Part shown: positions 61,456 to 62,240 of the stretch, piece by piece
Numbering within the stretch: position 1 is the stretch's first letter
How the letters are laid out: each line of letters opens with the position of its first letter
Origin: an uncultured Pseudomonadales bacterium
Lineage (GTDB): Bacteria; Pseudomonadota; Gammaproteobacteria; Pseudomonadales; Azotimanducaceae
DNA length: 64,000 nucleotides
NCBI GenBank assembly: GCA_938017975.1
Contig: CALIKQ010000011.1
Coordinates: 1 to 64,000, forward strand
Reading direction: 5' to 3'
The notes under the pieces: model-generated
Databases searched by the model: none
What the model was told of the DNA's origin: nothing
Seen by the model: the letters and a program-made list of their open reading frames with translations, nothing else
Program-made: the position numbers and the translations under genes

Positions 61456-61754
61456 TCGGGAGACCGAGTTCTTGCACTGGCATTGAGACACGATGTCGGT
61501 GTTTTGGTGTCACCTGCAGCCCCTAAAGACTAGCGCGCCATCGCTAAGGTAAATGCAGCGTGTCACCTAGCGGATTGTTATTTGCTGTCACGGTTCTGAG
61601 GCGCCTAAAGTGATGCGCGTCGAAAGACGGCTTTTTAGGGCAGCTCAACAAGCCATCAAGCGAGCAATAAGGAGTGTAAAAAAAACATGCCGGCTTGATT
61701 TGACCTCGTGTTCAGTGTTTATCTAAGGCTTGAGTCTGTAAACAGGAGCCAAGG
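61456..61754. other. Non-coding region upstream of the selenoprotein gene
   Basis: 299 bp without a gene, rich in short stops in all frames. TTGACC lies near 61698, but no -10 at a normal distance is seen. AGGAG at 61744-61748 serves the next start codon. Confidence 0.4.
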
Positions 61755-62240
61755 ATGAACCAACCGCTTACCTCGGGCGATACGCTGCCCGAATTAACTG
61801 TTGCCACAGTTGCCCATGGCGAGCAGCGCTGGCCCTCTGTCTTTGAGCAGCCTCTAAATCTAGTGCTTTTTTATCGTGGGCATTGGTGACCTTATTGTCG
61901 CCGTCTTTTGGCTGGCTATGAGGAGCGCCGTGAAGCGTTTCGAAAAGAAGGGGTCGGTTTTTTTGCAGCTTCCGTTGATGCGTTGGAAGACAGTCTCGCC
62001 GTCGCACAGGATTTATCTTTTCCCTTGGCTTACGGGATCACCCGCGATGATGCCGCAGCGCTTGGAGCGTGGTGGGATGATAAGCGCGACTTTATTCAGC
62101 CAACTGAGTTTTTAGTCTCACAATCTGGAAAAATAATGTTTTCGACCTACAGCAATTCTCCGGTGGGCAGAATGGATCCGGATGAACTGCTGACCTTGAT
62201 TCAATTTTTGAGCGCCCAGCGAGCCCGCCAAAAAAGCTAG
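61755..62240 (+). CDS. Peroxiredoxin-like selenoprotein (in-frame UGA at Sec45, UxxC motif)
   Basis: Reading through one TGA (61887-61889) gives a 161-residue thioredoxin-fold protein. It starts at ATG 61755 with AGGAG 6 nt upstream. Before the TGA it reads NLVLFYRGHW, then after it PYCRRLLAGYEERREAF. The peroxiredoxin-like family has FYRGxxCPxC here, so the UGA replaces the first cysteine, giving U45-P-Y-C48. The whole downstream domain is intact: FFAASVDALEDS, PLAYGITRDDAAALGAW, FLVSQSGKIMFSTYSNSPVGRMDPDEL. A hairpin follows at 61905-61935. A true nonsense mutation is the alternative, but it would have to hit exactly the catalytic codon and leave the rest undecayed. Sec machinery genes are not in the window. 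Confidence 0.85.
61905..61935 (+). promoter_or_regulatory. Candidate bacterial SECIS hairpin
   Basis: Just after the UGA, CUU (61905-61907) pairs with AAG (61933-61935), GGC (61910-61912) with GCC (61927-61929) and GCU (61915-61917) with AGC (61924-61926). There is a UG bulge on the 5' side and a 6-nt loop, AUGAGG. The loop starts 28 nt after the UGA, within the range for bacterial SECIS. A 5'-side bulge and six-base loop also occur in E. coli fdhF. The loop lacks a G in its first two positions, so the match is incomplete. Confidence 0.55.

Follow-up and report, generated by a model that had tools for sequence, protein, structure and literature searches.

Peroxiredoxin-like (Prx-like) selenoproteins of bacteria are described, in the openly available text of PMC13188914 and PMC2398784, as proteins with a PF00578 domain and a UxxC or UxxU motif, and the accessible part of the latter paper names SelL as one of them. 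The corresponding part of PMC13188914 gives the bacterial SECIS (bSECIS) model, in which the loop has a G among its first two positions and, for most elements, lies 16-37 nt from the UGA; according to the same review, a subset of the known elements fails this model. Here we describe what we regard with very high confidence as a functional selenoprotein gene, in which the UGA at codon 45 would be decoded as selenocysteine (Sec), and the two hairpins that follow this codon.

The gene lies at 61755..62240 (+) of the window, by which we mean the whole 64,000-nucleotide stretch of DNA analysed, and comprises 161 codons followed by TAG. A Shine-Dalgarno-like AGGAG, read from the sequence, is located at 61744..61748 (+), 6 nt upstream of the ATG at 61755. 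With TGA translated as a residue, codon 45 (61887..61889, +) is the sole TGA of the 161-residue frame; it stands in the context FYRGHW-U-PYC, forms a UxxC motif with Cys48 (61896-61898) and is followed by 116 open codons up to the TAG. The Pfam AhpC-TSA (PF00578) model matches the read-through protein across the TGA, at residues 8-128 (1.9e-14; 54.1 bits, the cut-off being 26), and codon 45 falls on the first Cys of CPxC in the AhpC/TSA-fold family. The preliminary description had placed an in-frame TGA at this Cys, behind a good start with a Shine-Dalgarno sequence and ahead of 116 codons fitting the fold, and all three points hold. Its view that a UxxC Prx-like selenoprotein was plausible, given such proteins in marine metagenomes, agrees with the published Prx-like kind, since both the PF00578 domain and the UxxC motif (U45-P-Y-C48) are present here.

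Standard annotation would split the gene in two or call it a pseudogene. For the read-through protein every NCBIfam model stays below its cut-off (the best scores 22.7 against 211 bits), and the FYRGHWUP[YF]C group is therefore unnamed in that collection. The neighbouring genes, identified by reading of their frames, are acyl-CoA dehydrogenase-like, serine hydrolase-like, RraA-like and SDR-like, and no clear functional partner was found among the surrounding frames. A scan of the window for UxxC or CxxU frames with TGA lists 12 others, which are candidates by motif. Elsewhere in the window TGA is an ordinary stop, as had been claimed before, because it terminates 15 of the 50 stop-to-stop frames of at least 200 codons (TAA ends 22 and TAG 13), not all of these frames being genes.

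A profile built from 27 homologues finds the gene in 88 of the 206 genomes, and 22 of the 37 genera, of the window's bacterial family (E 1e-30 or better). Among the 89 family matches, 88 span codon 45 and every one of them has TGA (87 contain one TGA and one contains two); the 89th, a fragment that starts downstream of codon 45, is outside the 88/88 count. A position check at the DNA level places the TGA at the same codon in all 88 spanning copies, L264 included, and three single-contig assemblies (G052, G225 and G226) each hold both the TGA gene and selA. In a sample of 369 genomes of the class, searched at E 1e-25, the gene was found only in the window's own genome. Cys forms (TGC or TGT) were encountered solely among remoter homologues, whose identity is about 48% or below, namely in a gammaproteobacterium MAG (L011, 48%) and in Chloroflexi and others (30-41%); a copy from a deltaproteobacterium MAG (L010, 52%) has the TGA. 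In 9 of the 9 more distant homologues looked at, a Cys codon stands opposite the TGA. Thus, the alignment and the survey of related genomes that the preliminary description had proposed both support its reading, and TGC or TGT in close relatives, which together with other decay it would have taken to favour a nonsense mutation or sequencing error, is not seen.

The nearest relative, L098, is 91% identical to the window copy. The dN/dS between the two is 0.033 before the TGA and 0.030 after it, with a nonsynonymous difference of about 0.05 on either side and a synonymous one of about 0.65. Purifying selection is therefore equal on both sides of the TGA. The synonymous difference is 0.66 before the TGA, 0.095 over codons +4 to +17 and 0.64 beyond.

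The genome to which the window belongs (G000; 3.19 Mb in 79 contigs, 96.5% complete) has a tRNA-Sec with anticodon TCA, called by ARAGORN on contig C24 (L127:7248-7340, -); the Rfam tRNA-Sec model scores it at 45.8 bits, 1.2 bits below the cut-off of 47. About 1.5 kb away on the same contig, with a P450-like gene between, lies selD (L127:8814-11051, -), a frame of 745 codons with an N-terminal FAD/NAD-binding part, its identity read from the sequence. Fusions of Ndh and SelD are described in the accessible text of PMC2398784. The same genome contains a second TGA gene (L280, C37:53707-54708) with the motif WUPPC and a hairpin with the loop AGUUA, its G at +18.

In the G000 assembly, neither selA nor selB was found over cut-off. 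Across the family, selA was detected in 172 of the 206 genomes (166 over cut-off) and in 121 of the 128 high-quality ones; selB exceeds its cut-off in 32 of 58 genomes, the window's own being among the 58. The two genes are adjacent in members of the genus, and in relatives they lie away from the selD-tRNA-Sec locus. On contig C46 of the genome G012 the order is thioesterase, comEC-like, DUF2062-like, lolE, lolD, lolC, PilZ-like, apbE-like, deaminase-like, SPOR-like, selA and selB (gene names by reading, one small frame omitted), and the contig stops inside selB. On contig C9 of G000 (81,170 bases) the match to this block, followed via G004, breaks off within the thioesterase gene, at base 81,170. 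A DNA search found no match in G000 to the first 12 kb of G012 C46, and for the remainder of the G004 contig only a 37-base match to part of lolD, on contig C55. Because lolCDE are essential, the selA-selB block is probably missing from the G000 assembly and not from the organism, and the synteny suggests that selA and selB lie beyond the end of contig C9. Another genome, G003 (8 contigs, 93% complete), has the TGA gene; selA and selB were not found there over cut-off, and it shows no DNA match to the selA-selB block of G012. Thus, the sel gene search proposed in the preliminary description is answered in part: tRNA-Sec (selC) and selD are present, and the assembly yielded neither selA nor selB. 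A joint absence of selB and selC, which it had considered telling against a selenoprotein, is not observed either, as selC is there and selB belongs, in relatives, to the block broken at the end of C9.

AlphaFold2, run with 18 sequences, predicts the fold with a pLDDT of 92.9 and a pTM of 0.87, and residue 45 comes directly before helix 46-57. Among solved structures the closest are peroxiredoxins: Foldseek matches 5ovq_B at 6.4e-12, and VIA-align aligns the model with 3hjp_A at Z 20.9 and 2.2 A for 152 residues. Cys48 is invariant in 27 aligned rows. The canonical peroxiredoxin motif PxxxTxxC/U is absent, the string LFYRGHWU having L38 and G42 for P and T, and for this reason we do not call the protein a canonical peroxiredoxin. 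The product would be a small single-domain protein of peroxiredoxin fold, most likely a thiol/disulfide or peroxide reductase. The selenolate would stand in for the first Cys of CPxC, right before helix 46-57; Sec45 would attack the substrate and Cys48 would resolve the selenenyl-sulfide.

Behind the UGA we observed two hairpins. The proximal one (helix 1, GCCGTC-TTTTG-GCTGGC, 61900..61916, +) forms 5 of its 6 pairs in the window copy; neither of the first two positions of its loop is a G, and it can adopt an alternative fold with a bulged U. In TGA homologues it corresponds to columns 14-30 and its loop is often UGUUA, with the G 18 nt after the UGA. It pairs at 4-6 of 6 positions in 88 homologue rows, with the loop 16 nt from the UGA. 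The same site in nine Cys homologues forms between 0 and 4 of the 6 pairs, and the two homologues that reach 4 match the weakest TGA rows; folds are weaker in the Cys homologues, at -0.5 to -4.4 kcal/mol versus -4.1 to -13.8 in 31 TGA rows.

The distal hairpin (helix 2, GAGCGC-CGTGAA-GCGTTT, 61923..61940, +) forms all 6 of its 6 bp, has the loop C-G-U-G-A-A and is separated from the UGA by 39 nt up to the loop. It occupies columns 37-54, mostly as GA[AG]CGC-CGUGnn-GCGUUY, with the loop G at +41. With regard to the bSECIS model, the loop G is found in helix 2 of the window (CGUGAA) and not in helix 1, while the spacing of 16-37 nt is kept by helix 1 and exceeded by helix 2. Relative to the model's MFE threshold of -7.5 kcal/mol or below, the helix 2 stem alone gives -7.3 and the 66-nt region -19.4. 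The best other G-loop hairpin with at least 4 bp and 16-37 nt from the window's UGA reaches +0.7 kcal/mol. In E. coli, SelB contacts a loop G-U.

Synonymous variation was compared with expectation over 63 codon columns (-14 to +49) in 88 rows, and its entropy is lowest, relative to expectation, at helix 2. At codon +14, Arg is encoded by CGT in 61 of 66 cases (entropy 0.44 vs 2.14 expected), and at codon +16, Ala by GCG in 63 of 68 (0.45 vs 1.96). Codons +4, +6 to +9 and +13 are also constrained, and columns before the TGA and past +19 are mostly near expectation. As helix-2 rows make up most of the sample, this constraint in part restates the conservation of the sequence. Helix 2 hardly varies, so that its pairs give no covariation, and the case for it therefore rests on synonymous constraint.

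The two hairpins were scored in 88 rows, consisting of 87 family copies and L010. Helix 2, counted as present when at least 5 of its 6 pairs and the core CGCCG or CGTCG are found, occurs in 62 of the 88 rows and is absent from 26; three rows scored without it (L124, L259 and L272) form 5-6 of the 6 pairs there, with other sequence and no CGUG loop. The loop G of helix 1 is lost in 28 of the 62 helix-2 rows, the window being among the G-less, and none of the 26 rows lacking helix 2 has lost it. L264, which is outside the 88 rows, likewise has helix 2 and no loop G in helix 1. When the rule is tightened to require GU in the distal loop, the counts become 27/61 versus 1/27 (Fisher p 0.0001), the one row being L266. 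This is the sole helix-2 row with the distal loop CGGG instead of CGUG; G followed by G is allowed by the published loop rule.

Because the rows are related, we also counted changes on a tree built without the hairpin codons. It has at least 9 loop-G changes and no G-less row without helix 2, and the chance of this pattern is 0.009 if losses are even over branch length (10.85 vs 7.52); this tree, like a second one built here, is a quick one from few columns with no bootstrap. A comparison of independent pairs, relating loop-G loss to helix 2, had only 5 usable pairs. In 21 helix-2 rows, 97.1% of the cells are paired (95.0 in helix 1 and 99.2 in helix 2), a value as high as which was seen in 0 of 500 shuffles, and three pairs of helix 1 show double, compensating changes. 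In 11 rows without helix 2, helix 1 is 87.9% paired with one recurrent mismatch, the helix 2 site is 50% paired and the CTGTTAG bases are invariant; covariation in these 11 rows is not above that of shuffles.

Alternative hairpins within the published range occur in 6 of the 28 G-less rows (L243, L253, L260, L263, L265 and L270). In L260, L263, L265 and L270 the alternative is more stable than helix 2 (-8.6 versus -7.0); it has the loop AGAGCG 32 nt from the UGA, overlaps helix 2 and follows the published spacing and loop rules. These four rows therefore speak against a simple rule. A strict count of in-range hairpins (contiguous stem, E of -3 or below, 16-37 nt) likewise passes over 19 of the 26 rows that lack helix 2, many of them with a single mismatch in helix 1, and for this reason the lack of an in-range hairpin is weak evidence by itself. 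In some members of the genus (L103, L107), RNAfold draws a third, outer stem, columns 4-12 with 58-65, that encloses both hairpins. We do not claim this three-way junction (61890-61951 in the window): over the 62 helix-2 rows it is 76% paired, shuffling gives 74.6%, with 4 of 500 shuffles attaining the real value, and shifting the stem by two columns yields 70%.

Taken together, the conserved TGA aligned with a redox Cys, selection on both sides of it, tRNA-Sec and selD in the genome (the latter identified by reading, not by a family search), the conserved RNA and the predicted fold lead us to a selenoprotein gene, as the preliminary description had thought probable. The UGA at codon 45 would be decoded by tRNA-Sec, SelD, SelA and SelB, guided by the hairpin RNA downstream; within this reading we infer the place of selA and selB in an assembly gap, the actual insertion of Sec, the chemistry and the substrate. 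Speaking against it are selA and selB, which are not in the assembly, the tRNA-Sec score under the Rfam cut-off, the incomplete fit of either window hairpin to the bSECIS model and the two Cys homologues that pair at 4 of 6 positions. A decaying Cys gene, with a TGA due to a nonsense mutation or to a sequencing error, might be suspected, as the preliminary description allowed, since the genome is a draft and one frame holds a single stop, the more so with selA and selB not found there. This is refuted, to the point of being extremely improbable, by the same TGA in 88/88 spanning copies, three of them in single-contig assemblies, and by strong purifying selection downstream of it. That the UGA is reassigned or suppressed otherwise, by a Trp code or near-cognate read-through, would also leave the frame open with TGA as a sense codon. 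We consider this very unlikely, since TGA ends 15 of the 50 long frames in the window and is aligned with a redox Cys and not with Trp, the genome has tRNA-Sec and selD, and the 9 Cys homologues show the conserved hairpins in weak form or not at all.

Which hairpin serves as the SECIS is a closer question. We see about an even chance that, within one orthologous gene, the SECIS moved from the proximal hairpin (+18) to the distal one (+41) via a stage with both; the move could also have run from distal to proximal. That window-like lineages kept the proximal stem as a spacer and lost its SelB-read loop, giving a tandem-hairpin SECIS outside the current model, is a part of this reading that we hold with evenly divided confidence, and the odds seem balanced that the loop read by SelB in the window's lineage is that of the distal hairpin. 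It is also quite possible, though we incline slightly against it, that Sec is inserted and that every homologue uses the proximal hairpin as its SECIS irrespective of the loop, the distal one being conserved for pausing, codon choice or another binding factor. Helix 1 is indeed kept in 88/88 rows, with 4-6 of its 6 pairs, its loop standing the usual 16 nt from the UGA, and the second TGA gene of the genome uses the same place. The loop-G changes number only about 9 on a poorly resolved tree, the 5 independent pairs are too few, and 4 of the 28 G-less rows have an in-range G-loop hairpin more stable than helix 2. A proximal SECIS throughout is, however, at odds with a loop G kept in 26/26 rows without helix 2 and lost in 28/62 with it, with the lowest synonymous variation examined, which sits on helix 2, and with the CGUG-type loops that recur, by eye, in hairpins of some paralogous TGA genes. 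If the relocation is true, it is a natural experiment on the reach of SelB and on the RNA context behind a UGA, and it would widen the search rules for SECIS elements. The RNA element, absent from the preliminary description, is the less expected and more unusual part of this locus.

In the window's family the copies found that span codon 45 have only TGA forms, and nearly all of its better genomes have selA. All of 20 further family loci, picked for an internal TGA, have W-U-P-x-C, and one (L219) belongs to the same group as the window gene. By eye, many of them have hairpins with an AGUUA loop at about +18, or with GGU and CGUGC loops at about +22; loops of the helix 2 type thus appear to recur in other TGA loci, but nearer the UGA. 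The remaining loci (L202-L218, L220 and L221) are TGA-containing thioredoxin-fold genes, the majority of which show, on inspection by eye, a hairpin downstream of the UGA. They include RGHWUPACN (with an extended C-terminal part), RAHWUPYC (with membrane segments), RSAVWUPPC, RSADWUPYC and RGLWUPPC, and mark the family as a selenoprotein-rich gammaproteobacterial group.

Among described systems, the protein is closest to the Prx-like thiol:disulfide oxidoreductase selenoproteins ('Prx-like 1' of the GOS set in the available text of PMC13188914 and PMC2398784), with which it shares PF00578, UxxC, a bacterial SECIS and an occurrence in marine metagenomes. The FYRGHWUP[YF]C group scores above the cut-off of no NCBIfam model and may belong to the published sets; no such protein group is named in the passages of open-licence text searched, and the string 'RGHW' is absent from the main text of PMC2398784 and PMC1088965. 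The SelL-related family (NCBIfam NF040769) gives a weak match around the UxxC, but at 21.4 bits versus a cut-off of 120 and only over residues 10-72. Sec peroxiredoxins (PxxxTxxU) share the peroxiredoxin fold predicted here, whereas our protein has UxxC, and L38 and G42 in place of the P and T of their motif. Thus, the protein is of a known kind, Prx-like UxxC, and forms a new unnamed group. As for the RNA, a tandem or second bacterial SECIS hairpin is not named in the passages of open-licence text searched. Like the canonical bacterial SECIS, the element described here is a coding-region hairpin behind the UGA with a loop G followed by U; unlike it, there are two hairpins, and 39 nt separate the UGA from the loop of the one that has the G.
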